Source: a virus
Strand: one strand, 5' to 3'
Virus record (IMG/VR): IMGVR_UViG_3300047564_003886
Location: 1-21,330 of that record
Length of the DNA stretch: 21,330 nt
Within the stretch, counting starts at the first letter, position 1. Each line of letters begins with the position of its first letter. This document shows, piece by piece, positions 76 to 11,927 of the stretch. Below the pieces are notes generated by a model, which worked only from the letters and a program-made list of their open reading frames with translations, searched no databases and had not been told where the DNA came from. Both the position numbers and the translations under genes were made by a program.

Positions 76-246
76 ATGAAAATTAATCTTTGGTATTGCG
101 AATCTTTTAAAGAATGGAGATGGACTCTAACTGATGATCATCGTCCTATCTTGAAACAAGAATCGGGACAAAGACCAGATCTTAGAGACGCAATGAATGA
201 CATTGCAAATACTGTTGAATATATGTTAGAAGCTCAACAATCATGA
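76..246 (+). CDS. Small hypothetical protein, 56 aa
   Basis: A short frame opens with ATG at 76, 16 bases after the tRNA, and ends with TGA at 244-246. It encodes a 56-residue protein starting MKINLWYCESFKEWRWTLTD. The product is soluble-looking, with an aromatic N-terminal half and a helical tail (residues 35-53), and has no membrane segment. Its stop overlaps the next gene's start (ATGA at 243-246), the same coupling used by the next gene pair, which supports it being real. I recall similar short 'hypothetical' proteins in cyanomyovirus genomes but know no function. No clear Shine-Dalgarno sequence precedes the start. Confidence 0.7.
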   Translation: MKINLWYCESFKEWRWTLTDDHRPILKQESGQRPDLRDAMNDIANTVEYMLEAQQS

Positions 247-737
247 ATAATGTAAAAGTTCATGACCAATTTTTTGAAACTAGATTATATTTTGAATTGG
301 TCAAATATTTGTATAATGTAAAAAAATATGCATTTGGTGAGTTCGATCATTCTTATGCTCCACCAGTAGGTTTAATTGCAGATTTTACAGATGCACTAGA
401 ATTTCCATTATCCACTGCTGTATCAAAAATTCAAAAACTTATTCCAGATAATTTAAATCTAGATAGAATCTATTGCAATTGTTTTGCACCAAATGAATTT
501 CCTTATTTTCATATAGATAGCAGTTTACCACAGGAAAAAACTGTATTAGTCTATATTTCTGATAAAGAATGGTCCATTAATGATGGGGGAGAAACGCAAT
601 TTTATCAAGACGATAGAATTTTTGGAGTTCCTCCAAGACAGAATAGATTAATTATATTTGATTCCAATATTTTGCATCGAGCAACTTCTTTTCACAATAG
701 GCATAGATTTACGTTAGCACTTAAATATAAAACATGA
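243..737 (+). CDS. 2-oxoglutarate/Fe(II)-dependent dioxygenase (prolyl-hydroxylase-like), 164 aa
   Basis: A compact double-stranded beta-helix dioxygenase. The iron-binding facial triad is visible as HxD (His90, Asp92 in YFHIDSS) and a distal histidine (His145 in LHRATSF). Arg155, ten residues on in RHRFTLAL, is placed to bind the 2-oxoglutarate carboxylate. The segment NDGGETQFY (113-121) is the usual strand between the iron ligands. All catalytic residues are present, so the enzyme is likely active: it would couple 2-oxoglutarate decarboxylation to hydroxylation of an unknown substrate. The size suits the minimal P4H-like family often found in cyanophages. It overlaps both neighbours by ATGA and is probably translated with the methyltransferase. 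Substrate (protein, nucleic acid or small molecule) cannot be told from the sequence. Confidence 0.88.
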   Translation: MNNVKVHDQFFETRLYFELVKYLYNVKKYAFGEFDHSYAPPVGLIADFTDALEFPLSTAVSKIQKLIPDNLNLDRIYCNCFAPNEFPYFHIDSSLPQEKTVLVYISDKEWSINDGGETQFYQDDRIFGVPPRQNRLIIFDSNILHRATSFHNRHRFTLALKYKT

Positions 738-1465
738 CTTTCGATCTGGATGAATTCTATTCTGAAAATGATATAGAATCTTGGAAAATGGTTGTGGGAG
801 AAGATCTTCATTACCATCTAGGTTCTAGATCTGAAGGTGATATTTTTGAGCAAACAATTCGCAACCTTTATCAATATATCCCAGACAATTCCAAAATTCT
901 TGATTGTGGATGTGGATGGGGTGGACCAGCAAAGATGCTAATGAAAGAAAAAAATTGCAGCATCACTGGAGTTACCATCTCAAAATCTCAGGCAGAGTAC
1001 ATTACAGAATTTCCCGTCATATTGGATGATTTACAAACATTTGTACCAACAGAACGATATGATGTTGCTTTGTTTGTCGAATCTTTAACGCATGTCCGCA
1101 ATCCGAAAAAAGTTTTGAAAAATATTCACGATCATGTTGGCAAAGTAGTAATTAAAGATTATACTTGGGACCATAGATTTTACAATCCAGTTTGGGGAAT
1201 GCAATTCTATCCAAGAGATGAATTTATTCATATGCTAGAAACTTCTGAATATAAAGTTGATCTTTGCGAACCAGATACAGATATTGATATTGTAAAAACT
1301 TGTTCGTTGTGGTACAATAATTTACAGAAGTTAGATCCAATAAAAATTACTGGTCACTTGAGAGCATTAGAATTGTTATCAATTTCTGTTTTAAATCATC
1401 TAGGTTCAAAATATAAAGACGGAGAGGCAGCTCCAATGCTGATCACATGCGCTACTCCAGTATAA
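734..1465 (+). CDS. Class I SAM-dependent methyltransferase, 243 aa
   Basis: A Rossmann-fold methyltransferase. Motif I is ILDCGCGWGG (55-64), followed by the post-I strand ITGVTISKSQAEY (77-89), which resembles the cyclopropane-fatty-acid-synthase, tocopherol and sarcosine methyltransferase group. An acidic pair (Asp98-Asp99) and the motif-IV-like strand VALFVESLTH (111-120) follow, then helix and strand VLKNIHDHVGKVVIKDY (127-143). The C-terminal third (about 150-243) is probably the substrate-binding part. The CGCGWGG form points to a small-molecule or lipid-type acceptor more than to DNA; no DPPY/NPPY motif of N6-adenine methylases is present. The start overlaps the dioxygenase stop (ATGA, 734-737), so the two are co-translated. 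Its stop codon lies inside a late promoter for the next gene. The acceptor is unknown. Confidence 0.87.
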   Translation: MTFDLDEFYSENDIESWKMVVGEDLHYHLGSRSEGDIFEQTIRNLYQYIPDNSKILDCGCGWGGPAKMLMKEKNCSITGVTISKSQAEYITEFPVILDDLQTFVPTERYDVALFVESLTHVRNPKKVLKNIHDHVGKVVIKDYTWDHRFYNPVWGMQFYPRDEFIHMLETSEYKVDLCEPDTDIDIVKTCSLWYNNLQKLDPIKITGHLRALELLSISVLNHLGSKYKDGEAAPMLITCATPV

Positions 1466-1499: not shown

Positions 1500-4400
1500 A
1501 TGTCTCTTACAAGACTTGATAATCTGTATTCCAGTAAAACTGGAAAGTATCTGTATGTCTCGCCAGATGACTTTAATGCAACAGATAATCTAGATAACAG
1601 AGGTAATTCTCCTCTACGTCCATTTAAGACAATTCAGAGAGCATTTTTAGAGGTAGCTCGTTTTTCTTATCAGCCAGGTGCTAATAATGATCGTTTTGAT
1701 CAATTTAGCATTATGCTTATGCCTGGTGATCACTATATTGATAACCGCCCAGGTCTAGCAAACTACAGCATTGGTGGCAGCAACACAGCAAGAAACAGAT
1801 ATTTTGATGCTGCTAACTTAATTGAAGCAAACAAAGAACTGATTGCATATGAAGCATATGCAAGAATGCTGGATAATAATCCAGGATTCCAAACACCAAC
1901 CGGATCTCCACAAGATTGTATTGATGATGTTTTGGATATTCTGAACGCTATTATTTACAACGTTAAATTTGGTGGAAACGATAAAACTTTTGACGCTGCT
2001 TTAGTATATCAAAACAATCCAGATTTAATTGCTAGCGAGCAGCAAGAATCTATCGAAGTTTATGATAATGCAAGAGAACTTGCAAATTTGGCACTGATTC
2101 AGGCACCAATTTCGCCACTTCTTCATGCTGATTATCTAACCGAATTATCAATCGGAGCACCATTTGAGCAGTACTTTGACCCAACAATCTTAGTTGGACC
2201 AAGCATCTTTGGTCAGTCTGGTGCTAACATTAACTATGGTCAAGCAGAAACCTGTGCTGATGTACAATCGAGTGTCAACACTCTCTTCTCAATTATTGAA
2301 GAAGGAATTAATGAATCATTGGTATTTGATGATCGTCAAGAACCAGAAACTTTAGGAGAACTTCCTGTATTTAATTTTGATCAGGAGTCTGGTCAGTGGG
2401 ATGATAACTCTATTATTGATCTGAGAAATCCTGATAATATCTACTGGAAGTTTAATGCCTCTACTGGTGGAGCAATTGTTCCTAGAGGTTGCTCTCTGGT
2501 TGGTTATGACCTGCGTAGAACTATTGTAAGACCTCTGTACGTTCCTGATCCAGCAGACTCAAATCAGGGAAGAACATCAATTTTTAACCTAACTGGTGGA
2601 TGCTATATCTGGCAGTTCACAATCAAGGACGGAGATCTTTCAAGTAACTCTCCTCTATATGATGTAAATGAAAATGTTGGTAAAGTTTATTACCAAAAAG
2701 GAAATATTTCTACACTTGCAGTTCCTGAATATTCTCACCACAAAATCTGCATCATGGAGTATGCAGAAGAACAAGAACTTGAAGCTTACTACCAAAAAGT
2801 AGGTATTGCATTCTCCAAATACCAACCAACAATTGACGATGATGGAGAATTTAGCGCACTTGTTCAGGAAAACAGAATTGTTGGTCCTCTATCTGATACA
2901 AGATCAATTGAAAGTATTAAACCAATTGATACAAACATTGGACAACCAAATCAAAAATTAGTATTAGAAGTTACTACTAAGATTGATCATGGTTATTTTA
3001 AAGATCAGTACGTTGCTATTTTAAATACTGGTCTTGATGAAGAAACAAATGGTACATTTAAAGTTGCCAGCATTAGTCCAACAAATCCAAGACTATTTAC
3101 TTATGAAGTTCCCGGCAAAGTTTCTGCTGGTCTTGGATTAACTAACTTCCAAACATATCGTGTTGGATCCGGACTGAGCAACAATGCTGTAGCACAAGCA
3201 GAAATTGACTCTGTGGAATCTGCATCGCCATATGTGTTTAACTGCTCTATCCGCTCTACGTGGGGTCTGTGTGGTATGTGGGCAAATGGTTCTAAGTCAA
3301 CTGGATTTAGATCCATGGTTGTTGCCCAGTACACTGGTGTATCTCTACAGAAAGACGATAGAGCATTTATTCGTTATGATAACTTTACCAACACTTGGAA
3401 TCAGGCATCACTGAGCGATTCCTTTGCTACTGTTCCTTATCACACCAAAGGTGATGCTTACTGGAAGGATGATTGGAGAAACTTCCACATTCGTGCTTCT
3501 GATGACGCATTCGTTCAGTGTGTGTCTGTGTTTGCTGTTGGATTCTTTGACCACTTCCTGATGGAGTCTGGTGGTGACATGTCCATCACAAACTCCAACT
3601 CAAACTTTGGTAATACTTCACTTCACTCTGTAGGACATAAAGGATATTCCTTTAACCAGGACAAGGGAGGTTATATTACAGATATTATTCCTCCTCAAGA
3701 ATTGTCTGGTGGATATGGATCAAATCCAAATATTGCCTCTACAAATTCAACAAAGATTCCTTATTTCCCAATTGATATTGTATCATCGAACGATCTTTCA
3801 AATAAGACAAAACTATTCCTTGGTGGAGATACTGTATATGATCCTAGTTCAAGACCAGCAGCAACTCTAAACGGATTTAGACTCGGTGCCAGACCAGATG
3901 AAAAACTATTCCTCAAACTTGAACCAGATGTATCGGGAAGTGGAGATACTTTCTCTTCTACATTAACTCCTACTGGAGTAGAGAGTTACATGGTTGGAAT
4001 TGACTTCTTGAATCCAACAGGAATTTCGATTGATAATAAAGCACAAGATGCTGCCAACTTAATCAACTCAAATAAAGAGTTTATTCAAGATGAAGTTTAT
4101 GGATACATCACAACAAAGTATCCAGATCTTCTTACAGATCCAGAACTTACAATGTCACTCTGCCGTAGAGACGTTGGATATTATGTTGATGCTATTGTAC
4201 AAGACTTGAGACTTGGTGGAAACATCAATAGTATTCAGGCAGCAGAAGCATATTTTGTTGGCGGGTCACTCACATATATCCAAAATGAAAAGGATGAGAC
4301 TATTGATGCTCTTGGAGTTACGAGAGATTTATGTATTGCAGCAATGCGTAATTGGGATTATTTCCTGACCGGATGTAGTTGCAGTACAGCAACACTTCCA

Positions 4401-7400
4401 GTAGATGTGAGAGACATTATTAATGTTCCTTCAACTGAGGGTCTTGCTGTTGGCATGAAGGTTACTTCATATAATAATATTAATCCATCTAATAATACTG
4501 AACCATCTGGATCTCCTTCTGGTGTTGTACCACTCGATAGTTACATTGTTGAGATCATTGACGATACAACAATTAGAATTGGTGAAAAAGGTCAGTGGAT
4601 TTTTGGTCCCGAGGAGTATGATCCATCAACTGCAGATAAGTTTGTTACTCAGACAGTAACGGCATCTGGTCCCGGAACTGGACTTTTCCTGTTGTTCACA
4701 ATGCGTGATGAGCAAGTTCAGACATCACAAGATAATATCATTGCTGTAAGAGATGGCATCTTCTCATTAAAGAGAACTGTGTATGATGATTCTGTGGTTC
4801 AAGATGTTGTAAATATTGCATCTGAAACTGAATGTAGTGATATTGCGTCAGTTATTTCTGGACTCTTTACTGATATTACAACTCTTCTGTCTTCTCCATT
4901 TGGTGAAGATGGTGTAGAAAGAGTTGAACCATCAACTGATTTCTCTGCTTTATCAAAGAGAGCAACAATCTTTAGAGTTTCTGGTGGTAATCCACATGAG
5001 ATGGAAACAGGAACTGCTGTTAGACTTGTTCCAAAACCAGCACCAGGAAAAGATCCGGATCCTAGAGTTGTCAGACTTCCAAAGGGATTCAATACAAATA
5101 CTAAGTATTATGTGATTGCTCCAGGTAGAACTACATCGCCAGAAAATTATTCAAACACTAGCGCATTTAATTCTTCTGATCAAACAGTTTTCATGCTTGC
5201 ATCCACTCTTGAAAATGCAAGAGCTGGCAACTACATCTATTCACCAGAAACTGATGCAATTGATCCGGACATTATAATTGAAGTTAATAAGTATATTGTC
5301 GATCAACAATATGATCTATATCAATACACTTCTAAAATTTCTGTTGGTGCTGGTAGCGGTGTAATTGAGACAGATCTTGCTCACTCTTTTGACATTCCTT
5401 CTCCAAATGTAGAACCACAGAAAGTATTCTTTAGACAAATTGATGTTGATACTCCTCTACCACAGAGAACAGTTAATATTGGTATTAACTCATTCCAGAT
5501 TGCATTAGATCCACAGGATGAATTCTATACAAGATTTATTACTGCAAATCAATTCTGTATCTATGAAACATTTGACGATGCAAGAAATGATATCAATAGA
5601 GTTGTATTAAATGGATCTCAAAAATTTGTTTCTTATGCAAACAAGAGATTTAGTCCTCTAAGATTTGATCCAGCACCACTTAGTTATGGAACTAGAACTA
5701 ATTTAACGGGTCAGTGGTATCTTCAGGTTAAGTCATACAATGATGATGGAGAAAATCCAGCAACAAGTATTCTAAGAAGAATCACAAAACCAGAAGATAC
5801 AACATATTCAGGTTCCGCCCCAGCATCTACTAGAAGTAATGATACTTGGTTTGAGCGTGTAAATGATAAGAGAATTCCTGAAGATAGAGTTTACAAACTC
5901 AGATATGTAATTCCTAAGTATCTAGAAACGGTTAGAGATCCTCTGAATGGATTTGTAATCAAACTCAGAACTGACACCAAGAGAAGACTAAGACCACAGA
6001 AGATTGTTCTGAAACCAGTAGATATTAATCTACATAGCACCTCAGATTCTTATAATTCAACTTCTGTTGCTACTTTCCTCAACAACGGAACATTTGATGA
6101 TACTGGATTATACACAAATCCTGCAGAAAAATTAGGAAGAACTTCCACTTCCTATGAAAATGAGAACGTAACACCACTCTATGATCCATATGTTAACCCT
6201 AAGGTTATTGAAACTATTGGAAGCAAAACAGCATTCTCTGTACAATCTGCTAAAGTAGTAACACAATCAAGATTTGAAAATGGAGTTAATGTTCCATATA
6301 AGTATCTTGAATTGACTGCCTTTGATCACACAATTGTTAATCAAGGTTTGAAAAATGAGTCTTTCACAGTTGTACAGATTGATGCTCCTCAGGGTATTGG
6401 ATTTACTGCAAATACTTCGGTAAGCAATGAAACTAACCTAATTCAGTGGAGTGGTCATAGCTCTGGTACTGGATTCCTTCATGGATATTTCACCACATCA
6501 AATCCAACAACATCACCAAAATCTGTACAACCACAAAGATATTTCCTGATCATTAAAAATATTATTGATGGCGAAATTAATTATAATGGTTTAGTTGCAA
6601 CTAATTTCTTCCAAGGAGGAGACAATCTAACTAATTCACTATGCAGAGCAAAATTAATTGCTAAACCAAATAGCACTGGAGATGCTGACGGAAAGAGTAA
6701 GTCCGATAGGAAGGACTATCTCTATTCGATCAAGGGCTCTAATGTTTATACAATCACTCCTGGTGACATTGTAAGAGATGATGCTGGTGTAGATTATTAC
6801 GTTGATTCTGTCAATGATGTTGGAGAAATTGAAGATACATTCTATATCTTTGACATCCAAGAACTCAAGGAAAGAATTCCTGGTCAGCAAGATGGTATTT
6901 ACTACTTAATTTGTCTCAAAGGAAATGTTTCACCATACCCAGTTGGTCCTGGTGTTGGCACTAACTTTAGAAACTTTAAGTTCTCACAACCTATTTCTTC
7001 TCTGTATCCACAAGATTATAAAAATGATCCATTCTGGTTCAAACAGATTGATAATTCTTTAAATGATCCTCCCGCCTCTTATTGTGCCGCAGACAACTAT
7101 GTGCATGGTTTGGTTACAATCAACGATGCAAGATATAGCGAAACTAAAGAAGCAGTTAGCTTCCTGATCGAGAACCCAGCTCTTGAGGAATATACATTCG
7201 ATAATGATATTCAGGCAGACATTGATGCTAGACTGAGAGCACAGCCTGGTAATGCTCTTGCTGGTGCTGAAGATCGTAAGATTCCTATTAAGGGTATCAA
7301 TCAGTATCCAACCGATTCAAAACTTTATGTAGAACTTCGTAGACCATCTATTGCTCGTTCTGGAAACCACACCTTTGAGTATCTTGGATTTGGTCCTGGT

Positions 7401-10400
7401 AACTACTCAACTGGTTTCCCACTCCGTCAAGAAGTTATTCTTACTGACAAGCAAGACTTCTATGCTCAGGCAAAGAGAGAAGATGGTGGCATCGTATTCT
7501 ACACTGGTCTAAACTCCAATGGAGACCTTTACATCGGTAACAAGAAGATTAATGGTATTACTGGTGAAGAATCGTTCTTAGAATCTGCTGCTCTAATTGG
7601 TTCGGAAGATACTGATGATGAAGTTGGTGGAACTCTCGTTACCACTTTTGAAACCCCAGTAACATTTAACAATAAAATTAGTGTAAATGGTGTTGCTGCC
7701 TTCACTCAACCAGTTACAATTCAGGTTGACCCAGAAGATAATATTTTCCCAATTGTTTCTCTGAGAGTTCAATCACTTGTTGACTCTGCAAATCTTGGTG
7801 AAGATCCAACTCTTGATAGATCTTCATTCTTGAACAGAAACCTAGGTGATATTACAATTGGTAAAAACAGAATTCAATCTGCGATTTTTGGAATTAATGC
7901 TAGAGGTAATACTGCGTATACTGGTCAATCGTATACAGTAAGAACTCACTACATGACTGAGGCAGATGAACTGGGTTCATTTACAGTTAATAGACCTTCT
8001 AATCTAACTCCAGAACAATCACCACTTATCTTTGATTCTGGAAACGTTCTATCTGCTAACTCAAATAGACTATTTGCAAATCAGCAAGTATTCTATGGAA
8101 ATAGTTCCAATGTTCCACAACCAGGAGATATGCTTCTCAAGGGTAAGGAAGTTGGTAAGTCTGGATCATGGAGTTGGATCTATGCAAATACATTCTTGAC
8201 GATTCCAAATAATTTAATTGGAATTATTGCAACTCCAAAGCGTAATCAAATTGGCGAACTGGTTGTAAATGCTGGTACTGGACCAAACTTTACAGCACAA
8301 CCTCTTGTTAGACTTGTTTGGGCAACATTGAATGGTGCTCAGTTAACAAACCAAGACATCTTTGATGATTATGGTCTGACCGTAAACTCATTGATTCGTG
8401 TCTCTGGCGTTGAGAATGATCTGTTTACAATTTTCAATGGAACATTCTCAATCTTCCCAGATACCTATAATATCAATAGTCCATTCATTGATGTTCGTGT
8501 TAATCAAAATATTGCTTCTGTTGATATTTTTGAGGACTGGGGAGATTATGAACCAAATGCTGAAGTTTCTGTTTCCAATTCAGTTTGGAAAGAAATGGGT
8601 GTACTTGGTGCTGAGGCCATCAGAACTGAGACAAATAGAATTGGTCAGTATAAAGTTGGCATCAACACAGTTGCTAGAACAAACCATAGTGCATATCTAA
8701 CAGGATTTGTTGATGCTGCAACCACCGATCCACGCGCAAATCTTGATGTATTTGGTAACACGTTTATTAGCGGTAGAACTCTTGTAGATTATCGTAATCC
8801 TGCGTTTGCACAAACACCTCTCACAAGACCACTCAATGATTTAGATAATGCCTTGCTTGTTGGTGGCAACGCATATTCGCCAAATGATCTTGCAATCTTT
8901 AGAGTTTCTACCACAAATGGAGGAAGAGTTGGCATTAATTGCACAAATGCACAACTTAATGGTACAGCAGATGCACAAATTTTCAACAAAGATTTTGCAG
9001 TACAGGGTAGCGCAGCAATCAGTGGAAATCTGAGAGTTGAGCAAGATGTAGAAATCAATGGTGCCCCATCTGAAGTTTATGACGGCAGTTATGTAACAGC
9101 AGATCTTACCTCCAGAGCTCCTACATTTAACCTTGTAAATACTAGTTTCCTCAGCACATTAAATGTTGGTGCATATGCTTCAACAATTAATATGTTCAAT
9201 ACCTGGGATCAATCTCAGACAATTAACATCGGTACTAATGCTGCTAATGATCTAAATGACGATACAACTACTACACTTAACATTCACACCAATTCTGCAA
9301 AATCTACAGTTAATATTGGTACAGTTGTTGGAGGTGGTGGTGAGAATGAATCGAAGATTACAATTGGTGGTGCTATTGGATCTCCAAATAATTCTTTCTT
9401 CAATATCAAAAATTTCAGAACCATTTTTGATGGTAAACTGGTAATTCGTGGTGGTGCAAGTCAAACTAATGATGTTGGATATATTGAATCTGAAGGTATT
9501 CAGAACTTTGAATTCTTACCAGATGGAATTAGAACTCTGAACATTGGTAGACGAGTAGGAACACTGAATATTGCTGGTACATCTGGAACAACTACTATTA
9601 GAAATAGTTGCGATATTCTTGGTTCTGCTCTTGTCAAATCCGATATCACATTGGAAGGTGGACTAAGAAATACCAGTCTTGGAATTGAGAGAAACATCTT
9701 TGGACAAATCGCCCCAAATTCTGCTTCCCGCACAAATAATGAAGTAACAATTACAACATTATCTAATCATAATTTGACTAATGGCGATACAATTCGTGTT
9801 TACCTGTCAATTGAAGATCTTGCACCAGCAGGAACAACAACAGCAACGGTACTTACTCCAACTACATTTAAATATGCTAACGTAGGTTCTAATGTTTCTA
9901 CTACATTAGTAACTGGTACAGTTGTTAAAGTTGGTGTTGGATCTCCTCAAGGTGTAGGAAATCTAGAACAAAACAATCTCAACGTAGATTATTATGATCT
10001 GATCTCGCAAATTGCTCCTCTGAGAACAATTACAACAGTTACTACAGCACCTAATTATAAACTGCTACTTGATTTTAACTATTTTACTGAAAATGATCCA
10101 GTAATCTTTACTGATGTTGGAAATCTAACTGGAGTTCAAACTGGAGTTACTTATTATGTTCTTGATTCCGAAGGATCTTCTCTCACGGGAGCAGGTGGAA
10201 CTGCTGGTATTATTCTAACCACTACACCTGGATCTAACACTCCAATTCCGATTGGATTACAGAGCGGAACAACAGACGCCGGAAATTCTAAAATTTATCT
10301 TGCATTCACTTCGATTCAAACTCAGGGTGATGTCCCATGGGGCGGTCCTTCATTCCAAAATCCTGATGGATCTTATAGATTATATGTAAATAATCCAACT

Positions 10401-11927
10401 GGACTTGCAGCAAATCAATATCTATTGATTAATACTGAAGTTCTATTCACAACAAATGAACCATCTCTGACATATCCATACTATGTTGATGTACAAAGAG
10501 GTGTTGATGGAACTAGACTGCAAGCACATCCATCTGGAGATAGGGTATATGCACTTGGTAAGGAAGAAGGTGCTACATACATCTTCCCCAACCCAATTGA
10601 TTCCACATCTACTTCCCTCAACATTGGAGAATTCTCTGCAGTTGTTGAGCCAGGAGATCTCTTTAGATTAAATGCTGGAGGTGCTGGTGAAGAATGGGTG
10701 AGAATTACACAGGTAAATCTTTCCAATGCACAAAAATTTGTCATCAATAATGGTGACTTTGGTGATCAAGTAAGTCCACTTGATCCACTGGAAGTATTTA
10801 AAGTTACTAGTACAACTGGAAATACTAGAATTGTAGGAGATTTGACAATTGGTTATGATACAAGTAATAACGCACTTCTTGATGATGATGTTACCAATAG
10901 TGCAGCACAATTCTCCAGAACAGGAAGGGCATCCAGCACATCATTTAATGGTGGTGGATTAAATGAAACTGGTGGTGGTAATTTAAGAGTTCACAACTCT
11001 ATTGAACTTTCTGGTAATCAACTTACGACCTTACCACAGAGACAATATTTCGTAATTACTAATGGTGAGTTCCCAAGATTCCTAAGTGAAACTGCAACTG
11101 GAAACACGAGTATCTATGGTGGTGGTAATTTTACAATCTATTCCGATGAATACTATTCAAATGGTCCATGGAGTAAGACAAGAGTTAGCATTGCCGATAA
11201 CCTGAAGTTTGATATTCAAGGTGATACTGGTAATACTACAATTGCTGGTACTCTAAGAATTGGAGATGATTTAAACCTAGGAACATTGGTAGATAGAAAT
11301 ATACCAGAAGATGGATCTAATCTCTTTACATCTAGAGTATCGATCACTGCTGCAACTGGTGCAACAATTCTTGGTGAATCACTAACAATTACTGGACAAT
11401 CTAGTGCTACTCCTTCCGATGGTATTCCTGTTCTTGATGTTCAAGGTATTGGCGTAAGTGGCAACAAACCATTTACTATTAATCAGGATGCTTCTATTAA
11501 TGCATTTGGTAATGATAGATTCTTTACCAAGAATGGTGGAAGAAAACTGATCTTTGTTTCTGAGCAGGGTAACACACAGAATACAGCAAGAACACTCATT
11601 CCTAACCTGACTTATGCAGTAAGACCAACATCCAATCTTGTTCTTATTCTACCGACTTCCGGTGTGGAATCTGGTGATACAATTAGAATTGTTGATGTTG
11701 GTGGTGCTCTGAACTTTGCAGTGAACCTTGTAATTAGATCTGCTGATCCAATTCAGGGTCAACTAGGTGGAACAACTATTGGTGGACTTGTATCAACATG
11801 GGGTGGCGGTGAACTTGTTGTCAATACTCCAAATGCAGCATTTGGACTGATTTATCTTGCTTCTGTTGATGGAGAAAACAACTCTATTCCTGGAGCAAAT
11901 CAAGGTTGGTACTTAACCGAAATCTAA
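1500..11927 (+). CDS. Giant virion structural protein (probable tail-fibre or baseplate adhesin), 3475 aa
   Basis: The N-terminus (17-85) has YVSPDDFNATD, PFKTIQRAF and IMLMPGDHYIDNRPG, the layout of a pectate-lyase-like beta-helix start (as in DUF1565). I recognise it from cyanomyovirus structural proteins. Further beta-helix-like stretches include RGCSLVGYDLRRTIVRP (329-345) and about 660-720. A helical Cys module occurs twice (103-271 and 850-1125). A segment around 1945-2030, with FEYLGFGPGNYSTGFP, is also familiar from cyanophage fibre proteins. Then come NIG beta repeats (2575-2693), TGNT repeats (3100-3299) and a Gly/Asn-rich end. No signal peptide or membrane helix is seen. The start is chosen because MSLTRLDNLYSSKTGKYLYV matches remembered homologues and lies just after the late promoter; the Shine-Dalgarno is weak (GAAGAAA near 1473). 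The next gene begins one base after the stop. Exact virion position is unknown. Confidence 0.85.
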   Translation: MSLTRLDNLYSSKTGKYLYVSPDDFNATDNLDNRGNSPLRPFKTIQRAFLEVARFSYQPGANNDRFDQFSIMLMPGDHYIDNRPGLANYSIGGSNTARNRYFDAANLIEANKELIAYEAYARMLDNNPGFQTPTGSPQDCIDDVLDILNAIIYNVKFGGNDKTFDAALVYQNNPDLIASEQQESIEVYDNARELANLALIQAPISPLLHADYLTELSIGAPFEQYFDPTILVGPSIFGQSGANINYGQAETCADVQSSVNTLFSIIEEGINESLVFDDRQEPETLGELPVFNFDQESGQWDDNSIIDLRNPDNIYWKFNASTGGAIVPRGCSLVGYDLRRTIVRPLYVPDPADSNQGRTSIFNLTGGCYIWQFTIKDGDLSSNSPLYDVNENVGKVYYQKGNISTLAVPEYSHHKICIMEYAEEQELEAYYQKVGIAFSKYQPTIDDDGEFSALVQENRIVGPLSDTRSIESIKPIDTNIGQPNQKLVLEVTTKIDHGYFKDQYVAILNTGLDEETNGTFKVASISPTNPRLFTYEVPGKVSAGLGLTNFQTYRVGSGLSNNAVAQAEIDSVESASPYVFNCSIRSTWGLCGMWANGSKSTGFRSMVVAQYTGVSLQKDDRAFIRYDNFTNTWNQASLSDSFATVPYHTKGDAYWKDDWRNFHIRASDDAFVQCVSVFAVGFFDHFLMESGGDMSITNSNSNFGNTSLHSVGHKGYSFNQDKGGYITDIIPPQELSGGYGSNPNIASTNSTKIPYFPIDIVSSNDLSNKTKLFLGGDTVYDPSSRPAATLNGFRLGARPDEKLFLKLEPDVSGSGDTFSSTLTPTGVESYMVGIDFLNPTGISIDNKAQDAANLINSNKEFIQDEVYGYITTKYPDLLTDPELTMSLCRRDVGYYVDAIVQDLRLGGNINSIQAAEAYFVGGSLTYIQNEKDETIDALGVTRDLCIAAMRNWDYFLTGCSCSTATLPVDVRDIINVPSTEGLAVGMKVTSYNNINPSNNTEPSGSPSGVVPLDSYIVEIIDDTTIRIGEKGQWIFGPEEYDPSTADKFVTQTVTASGPGTGLFLLFTMRDEQVQTSQDNIIAVRDGIFSLKRTVYDDSVVQDVVNIASETECSDIASVISGLFTDITTLLSSPFGEDGVERVEPSTDFSALSKRATIFRVSGGNPHEMETGTAVRLVPKPAPGKDPDPRVVRLPKGFNTNTKYYVIAPGRTTSPENYSNTSAFNSSDQTVFMLASTLENARAGNYIYSPETDAIDPDIIIEVNKYIVDQQYDLYQYTSKISVGAGSGVIETDLAHSFDIPSPNVEPQKVFFRQIDVDTPLPQRTVNIGINSFQIALDPQDEFYTRFITANQFCIYETFDDARNDINRVVLNGSQKFVSYANKRFSPLRFDPAPLSYGTRTNLTGQWYLQVKSYNDDGENPATSILRRITKPEDTTYSGSAPASTRSNDTWFERVNDKRIPEDRVYKLRYVIPKYLETVRDPLNGFVIKLRTDTKRRLRPQKIVLKPVDINLHSTSDSYNSTSVATFLNNGTFDDTGLYTNPAEKLGRTSTSYENENVTPLYDPYVNPKVIETIGSKTAFSVQSAKVVTQSRFENGVNVPYKYLELTAFDHTIVNQGLKNESFTVVQIDAPQGIGFTANTSVSNETNLIQWSGHSSGTGFLHGYFTTSNPTTSPKSVQPQRYFLIIKNIIDGEINYNGLVATNFFQGGDNLTNSLCRAKLIAKPNSTGDADGKSKSDRKDYLYSIKGSNVYTITPGDIVRDDAGVDYYVDSVNDVGEIEDTFYIFDIQELKERIPGQQDGIYYLICLKGNVSPYPVGPGVGTNFRNFKFSQPISSLYPQDYKNDPFWFKQIDNSLNDPPASYCAADNYVHGLVTINDARYSETKEAVSFLIENPALEEYTFDNDIQADIDARLRAQPGNALAGAEDRKIPIKGINQYPTDSKLYVELRRPSIARSGNHTFEYLGFGPGNYSTGFPLRQEVILTDKQDFYAQAKREDGGIVFYTGLNSNGDLYIGNKKINGITGEESFLESAALIGSEDTDDEVGGTLVTTFETPVTFNNKISVNGVAAFTQPVTIQVDPEDNIFPIVSLRVQSLVDSANLGEDPTLDRSSFLNRNLGDITIGKNRIQSAIFGINARGNTAYTGQSYTVRTHYMTEADELGSFTVNRPSNLTPEQSPLIFDSGNVLSANSNRLFANQQVFYGNSSNVPQPGDMLLKGKEVGKSGSWSWIYANTFLTIPNNLIGIIATPKRNQIGELVVNAGTGPNFTAQPLVRLVWATLNGAQLTNQDIFDDYGLTVNSLIRVSGVENDLFTIFNGTFSIFPDTYNINSPFIDVRVNQNIASVDIFEDWGDYEPNAEVSVSNSVWKEMGVLGAEAIRTETNRIGQYKVGINTVARTNHSAYLTGFVDAATTDPRANLDVFGNTFISGRTLVDYRNPAFAQTPLTRPLNDLDNALLVGGNAYSPNDLAIFRVSTTNGGRVGINCTNAQLNGTADAQIFNKDFAVQGSAAISGNLRVEQDVEINGAPSEVYDGSYVTADLTSRAPTFNLVNTSFLSTLNVGAYASTINMFNTWDQSQTINIGTNAANDLNDDTTTTLNIHTNSAKSTVNIGTVVGGGGENESKITIGGAIGSPNNSFFNIKNFRTIFDGKLVIRGGASQTNDVGYIESEGIQNFEFLPDGIRTLNIGRRVGTLNIAGTSGTTTIRNSCDILGSALVKSDITLEGGLRNTSLGIERNIFGQIAPNSASRTNNEVTITTLSNHNLTNGDTIRVYLSIEDLAPAGTTTATVLTPTTFKYANVGSNVSTTLVTGTVVKVGVGSPQGVGNLEQNNLNVDYYDLISQIAPLRTITTVTTAPNYKLLLDFNYFTENDPVIFTDVGNLTGVQTGVTYYVLDSEGSSLTGAGGTAGIILTTTPGSNTPIPIGLQSGTTDAGNSKIYLAFTSIQTQGDVPWGGPSFQNPDGSYRLYVNNPTGLAANQYLLINTEVLFTTNEPSLTYPYYVDVQRGVDGTRLQAHPSGDRVYALGKEEGATYIFPNPIDSTSTSLNIGEFSAVVEPGDLFRLNAGGAGEEWVRITQVNLSNAQKFVINNGDFGDQVSPLDPLEVFKVTSTTGNTRIVGDLTIGYDTSNNALLDDDVTNSAAQFSRTGRASSTSFNGGGLNETGGGNLRVHNSIELSGNQLTTLPQRQYFVITNGEFPRFLSETATGNTSIYGGGNFTIYSDEYYSNGPWSKTRVSIADNLKFDIQGDTGNTTIAGTLRIGDDLNLGTLVDRNIPEDGSNLFTSRVSITAATGATILGESLTITGQSSATPSDGIPVLDVQGIGVSGNKPFTINQDASINAFGNDRFFTKNGGRKLIFVSEQGNTQNTARTLIPNLTYAVRPTSNLVLILPTSGVESGDTIRIVDVGGALNFAVNLVIRSADPIQGQLGGTTIGGLVSTWGGGELVVNTPNAAFGLIYLASVDGENNSIPGANQGWYLTEI
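1806..2312 (+). repeat. Helical Cys module, copy 1 (residues 103-271 of the giant protein)
   Basis: The first copy has DAANLIEANKELI (103-115), then C140-x2-D-V-x4-N-A-I with KFGGN ending at 160. A helix with EQQESIEVYDNARELANLAL (180-199) follows, then a second part TCADVQSSVNTLF (251-263). It aligns by eye with copy 2 at 4047-4874. It is predicted to be alpha-helical, unlike the beta-rich surroundings. Confidence 0.75.
4047..4874 (+). repeat. Helical Cys module, copy 2 with insertion (residues 850-1125 of the giant protein)
   Basis: The second copy has DAANLINSNKEFI (850-862), then C888-x2-D-V-x4-D-A-I with RLGGN ending at 908. A helix with DETIDALGVTRDLCIAAM follows, then the second part ECSDIASVISGLF (1111-1123). 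About 112 extra residues between the two parts, relative to copy 1, hold a small beta module (VDVRDIINVPSTEGLAVGM onward). The repeat is visible in protein but diverged in DNA. Confidence 0.72.
9222..9578 (+). repeat. NIG beta-strand repeats (residues 2575-2693 of the giant protein)
   Basis: A run of short strands with the core hydrophobic-N/T-I-G: INIG (2575), STVNIG (2602), KITIG (2619), LNIG (2680), TLNIAG (2688). The spacing and turn residues suggest a triple-stranded beta-helix or beta-prism shaft, as in phage fibre stems. The repeats are imperfect and the unit length varies. Confidence 0.55.
10797..11396 (+). repeat. TGNT-type beta repeats near the C-terminus of the giant protein
   Basis: Three copies of an approximately 19-residue unit with pattern hydrophobic-x4-T-G-N/A-T-x-I-x-G-x-L-x-I: FKVTSTTGNTRIVGDLTIG (3100-3118), FDIQGDTGNTTIAGTLRIG (3237-3255) and VSITAATGATILGESLTIT (3280-3298). 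A fourth, weaker copy, ETATGNTSIYGGGNFTIY, lies between the first two. They probably form a fibre shaft or repeated hairpins. Confidence 0.55.

Follow-up and report, generated by a model that had tools for sequence, protein, structure and literature searches.

In the beta subunits of phycobiliproteins (PBPs; CpcB and CpeB, PF00502), helices A to H carry two bilin-site cysteines and adjacent aspartates, among them the beta-specific Asp39. In phycocyanin, the bilins at the two beta positions lie 38.7 Å apart, and the one at Cys153 is held by Asn35 and by Asp39, the latter through a hydrogen bond (PMC6614406). This beta-Cys153 is the site served by the T-type bilin lyases (PMC10452541). Cyanophages encode a lyase of this family, CpeT (PF06206), which is an enzyme and not an acceptor of bilin, and the literature discusses its action on host phycoerythrin. 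PBP relatives are also found outside the phycobilisome, i.e., the bilin biosynthesis-associated globins (BBAGs) from heterotrophic bacteria, for which self-assembly with bilin has been reported (PMC10151467). Here, we describe PBP beta-type domains that are embedded in the tail fibre of a T4-like cyanophage. These modules share with the beta subunits the predicted set of helices A to H as well as the two cysteines of the bilin sites and the adjacent aspartates, but they lack the N-terminal X and Y helices and the interface formed by Arg91 and Tyr95, occur in tandem repeats and, in one copy, accommodate a beta insert between helices G and H. They resemble the BBAGs, to which we liken them by description, in standing outside the phycobilisome, and the cpeT gene is their neighbor in related phages.

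The window, i.e., the whole stretch of DNA that was analysed, comprises positions 1-21,330 of the IMG/VR record IMGVR_UViG_3300047564_003886 and derives from a marine cyanophage. Its giant tail-fibre gene (1500..11927, plus strand as all features given here) encodes 3475 residues and shows the backbone of T4-like cyanophage fibres (phrog_4527, E 0; phrog_529, 8e-281), together with phrog_38839 and phrog_5342. PHROG and NCBIfam scans of the fibre returned tail-fibre names or nothing. The gene is preceded by a 2OG-Fe(II) oxygenase gene (243..737), as in S-PM2, Syn1 and ACG-2014h, and by an adjoining methyltransferase gene (734..1465) that is shared by L081, the nearest relative. A methylated Asn72 occurs in PBPs, and a link of this methyltransferase to such a methylation is conceivable. 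At the left end of the window resides the 3' part of a tRNA that is truncated by the end of the contig (1-59; Rfam tRNA, 38.8 bits), and whose anticodon region looks like GTT (Asn). As a side observation on tRNAs, RefSeq places 16 tRNA features within the giant fibre gene of S-PM2 (L151, NC_006820); ARAGORN finds none there and nine upstream, and the annotations within the gene thus look misplaced.

The original prediction, made from the letters of the window, described a duplicated helical cysteine module within this fibre. We found both copies at the predicted residues of the open reading frame, with the four cysteines C140, C252, C888 and C1112 exactly as given. Copy 1 spans approximately residues 99-271 (1794..2312) and is placed between two fibre stretches that are contiguous in phrog_529, while copy 2 spans approximately residues 846-1132 (4035..4895). 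A whole-protein BLASTP self-search at E<=1 yielded only the trivial full-length match. A pairwise search of the two regions, in turn, aligned the copies with 34% identity over 104 residues (E 2e-11), and comparison of their profiles gave a highly significant score (99.7%, E 3.8e-25, 109 columns). Furthermore, the predicted models of both copies led to the same best PDB chain, 7ap5_BBB. The duplication is therefore real. In the AlphaFold model, copy 1 is nearly all helix (pLDDT 91), as anticipated. Copy 2 (pLDDT 75) is interrupted by the predicted beta-rich insert ahead of its second cysteine (4356..4784), with modelled strands at residues 953-1095 at the junction of helices G and H. It also contains additional cysteines at fibre residues 945, 959 and 961 (window 4332-4382), of which one near 959 is common to many relatives.

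The identity of the module emerged only from a family profile; neither a single-sequence search of the PDB nor a Pfam scan of the whole protein had revealed the relationship. Searched against the PDB, a profile built from 63 copies matched phycocyanin and phycoerythrin chains with a best E of 2.7e-7, and all matches listed were PBPs. PF00502 (Phycobilisome) was matched by 38 of the 63 profile members (best 1.5e-6), and five out of ten phage records passed the Pfam cut-off. Copy 1 of the window alone fell below this cut-off (E 0.011), and copy 2 as a single sequence had no Pfam match. Alignment by hhalign to cyanobacterial PBP profiles yielded E values of 9e-7 and 5e-8. The models point in the same direction. 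Foldseek gave best E values of 6.5e-5 for copy 1, whose best 50 matches were all PBPs, and 5.2e-3 for copy 2. In the VIA comparison, copy 1 reached a Z of 16.9 (rmsd 3.1 over 151; several chains 1.9-2.3 over 135-144) and copy 2 a Z of 15.9, both exceeding the value of ~13 that helical bundles can attain through a common arrangement, and in both copies the match to PBP beta subunits spanned almost the entire domain. As judged from these models, both copies adopt a globin-like fold with helices A-H, and we regard the modules as almost certainly homologous to phycobiliproteins. However, the structure alignments begin at PBP residues 19-34, corresponding to model residues 1-10, so that the X and Y helices are absent, and the interface residues Arg91, Tyr92 and Tyr95 are lost, with Asp replacing Arg91 in 75% of units. 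Because both the X-Y helices and the residues of the alpha-beta interface are missing, we consider the module a PBP-family domain and not a phycobilisome subunit.

We then located the bilin-site residues. The hhalign alignments place C140 and D143 of copy 1 on Cys82 and Asp85, and D103 (1806..1808) on Asp39, the residue that holds the bilin at Cys153/155 in the beta subunit (PMC6614406). The stretch C140-I-D-D143 (1917..1928) is equivalent to Cys82/84-x-R-Asp85/87, with Asp in place of Arg as in 30% of units, and C888-R-R-D891 (4161..4172) occupies the same position in copy 2. C252 (2253..2255), with which the C-terminal helix of this domain begins, falls on the helix of beta-Cys153/155; here the structure match reaches PBP residue 184 and the pairing was made by helix range and motif. 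In copy 2, its counterpart is C1112 (4833..4835), and D850 (4047..4049) is equivalent to Asp39. The putative second bilin site would hence be formed by C252 and D103 in copy 1 and by C1112 and D850 in copy 2. Both copies also have an asparagine at the position of Asn35 (N99 and N846). The Asp39 position was invariant in the beta (CpcB) set and not in the alpha set. Of the roles suggested by the original prediction, a binding site thus pointed in the right direction, whereas a hinge or trimer clamp finds no support in a phycobiliprotein globin fold in which the cysteines occupy the two bilin-attachment positions.

These positions are well conserved. Among 150 units that remained non-redundant at 75% out of 470 near-full units in the fetched loci, the Cys82 equivalent is retained in 97% and Asp85 in 98%; the Arg84 position is R in 69% and otherwise mostly D. 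The Asp39 equivalent is present in 94% of those units of this set that have a DAANLI-type first helix. A Cys153 equivalent occurred in every recognised C-terminal helix, a figure that is inflated because the profile for this helix was seeded on cysteine-bearing helices. Both cysteines occur together in 119 of the 123 non-redundant units that could be paired with a second-Cys helix. Some tandem units lack this helix, and these mostly retain the first cysteine. Losses were also observed: the first cysteine is missing in the close relative L085, and the modules of the Prochlorococcus phage P-SSM4 (L263, L264) have lost the bilin cysteines, with CpeT still encoded.

The module proved more widespread than the original prediction had counted. 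By tblastn against the phage collection, the module family was found at 871 places in 349 cyanophage records, comprising phages of Synechococcus and Prochlorococcus, and the matched proteins are annotated as short tail fibre, baseplate wedge initiator (gp7), YapH or structural protein. Single IMG/VR fibres contain up to approximately seven full modules, together with 43-aa half-repeats of the first helix, and baseplate-type proteins of related phages hold further modules. In the tandem arrays, the C-terminal C-x-D-V helix and the DAANLI-NKE first helix of the next unit occupy one slot. At the site of copy 1, between a segment ending in IDNRPG and one starting with IPRGCSLVGYD, the fibre of the window has one full module, S-PM2 and L098 have two, and Syn1 and L087 three. 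An open reading frame at position 1 of locus L046 shows tandem 43-aa first-helix repeats without cysteine at residues 761-890, followed by full modules. T4-like cyanophage fibres of 3.6-4 kb (Syn9, S-RIM2, S-WAM1, ACG-2014d and P-RSM4) have the same backbone and no module match within the gene. In phages with short fibres, the modules are located in other large proteins and retain their bilin sites, P-SSM4 excepted (Cys in 57/63 and Asp in 60/63, in a set that also takes in some long-fibre phage loci).

A gene for a CpeT-type bilin lyase lies 0.25-2.4 kb upstream of the fibre, on the same strand, in all ten IMG/VR loci that show 2.1 kb or more of the sequence preceding it. In S-PM2, Syn1, S-CAM4, S-WAM2 and ACG-2014h, the annotation has the two genes in this order as well. 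The first 249 bases of the window match positions 4713-4962 of L081, ~0.9 kb downstream of the L081 cpeT; the window does not include the position of this gene because the contig begins past the corresponding point. Across 25 phage genomes, 15 had both modules and CpeT, three modules only, none CpeT only, and seven neither (one-sided p 2.5e-4, which ignores relatedness within this hand-chosen and related set). CpeT was not detected in the module-bearing S-SKS1 and B23, and ACG-2014f, one of the three module-only genomes, has an annotated divergent CpeT. The neighborhood of cpeT and fibre may be inherited synteny. A bilin reductase was also considered as a partner of the modules and rejected, as it does not track them (2/13 genomes); pebS is reported in P-SSM2, a phage without modules.

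How the fibre uses these domains can be read in several ways. Our proposal starts from what the data support in one phage lineage, its related genomes and the predicted models, namely the homology, the predicted fold, the positions and conservation of the bilin sites, the repeat expansion, and the clustering and co-occurrence with CpeT; from these we infer bilin attachment, the kind of bilin and any effect of light. A PBP beta-type domain without X and Y helices would have been grafted into the tail fibre of this phage, and relatives would bear it in other large proteins of tail or baseplate type. During infection, phycoerythrobilin or phycocyanobilin would be attached to one or both module cysteines, with the bilin supplied by the host and, in some phages, also by phage enzymes, and the second cysteine would be served by the CpeT-type lyase encoded just 5' of the fibre in related phages. 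We lean slightly towards such an attachment. Yet it is quite conceivable, if less probable, that a PBP domain was captured from a host and serves the attachment apparatus in an unpigmented form, be it as a sturdy helical knob, a spacer or a ligand-binding head. The cysteine-free modules of P-SSM4 would fit such a use, as would the tandem arrays and ~43 aa half-repeats, which resemble the growth of structural repeats, and the occurrence of modules in some phages without a detected CpeT. On the other hand, the equivalents of Cys82, Asp85, Asp39 and Cys153 are among the best conserved residues while those of the PBP interface are lost, and cpeT adjoins the fibre, both of which favor bilin attachment.

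Two further explanations appear very unlikely. The two cysteines might form a disulfide, either in one chain or across chains, and thereby stiffen the fibre trimer or provide it with a hinge, and their joint retention in nearly all paired units would be in line with this idea, which leaves the conserved aspartates unexplained. By analogy to phycocyanin, though, the equivalent positions would carry bilins at a distance that makes a disulfide within one module unlikely, and units lacking the second-Cys helix mostly keep the first cysteine; on the inferred geometry and these single-Cys units we rejected the clamp within one module. A disulfide between chains would still be conceivable. Equally improbable in our judgment is that the domains act in the infected cell prior to assembly, e.g. 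as a sink that titrates bilins, lyases or linkers away from the phycobilisome of the host. Their fold would mimic that of host PBPs, and host phycoerythrin rises upon infection by S-PM2 (PMC2984593). Against this speaks that the modules are embedded in giant structural proteins of the tail and are devoid of the X-Y helices and interface residues for an alpha-beta partnership.

If bilin is attached as we favor, progeny virions would carry pigmented domains on the apparatus with which they attach to the host, and attachment could in this way come to respond to light. Modules are present in S-PM2, P-HM1 and P-HM2, and none were found in P-SSP7, P-SSM2 and Bellamy. Jia 2010 is reported to count S-PM2 among the phages with light-dependent adsorption. 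Such adsorption is described for marine cyanomyoviruses (PMC2984593), and P-HM2, unlike P-SSP7, is reported not to adsorb in the dark (PMC7112961). The contrast of P-SSP7 to P-HM2 and S-PM2 is weak evidence because P-SSP7 is a different type of phage. Very few phages underlie the correlation with light, whose effect might also be exerted via the host. Moreover, some module-bearing Prochlorococcus phages infect hosts without standard phycobilisomes, and what phage bilin genes bring in such hosts has been described as unclear (PMC2984593). That light-dependent adsorption depends on module-bound bilin is speculative, and we think it rather unlikely that in many marine T4-like cyanophages the attachment apparatus is a pigmented photoreceptor whose bilins, bound by a phage lyase to PBP domains of fibre and baseplate, make adsorption light-dependent.

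Within the open-access papers to which our literature search was limited, we found no description of PBP-like domains in phages or of such a use of the PBP family. If bilin is bound, these virions would bear an antenna-type pigment on their host-recognition apparatus. Two questions become testable, i.e., the substrate of cyanophage CpeT and the light control of adsorption in S-PM2 and P-HM2. Should the photoreceptor reading be true, it would account for the presence of cpeT in cyanophages as well.
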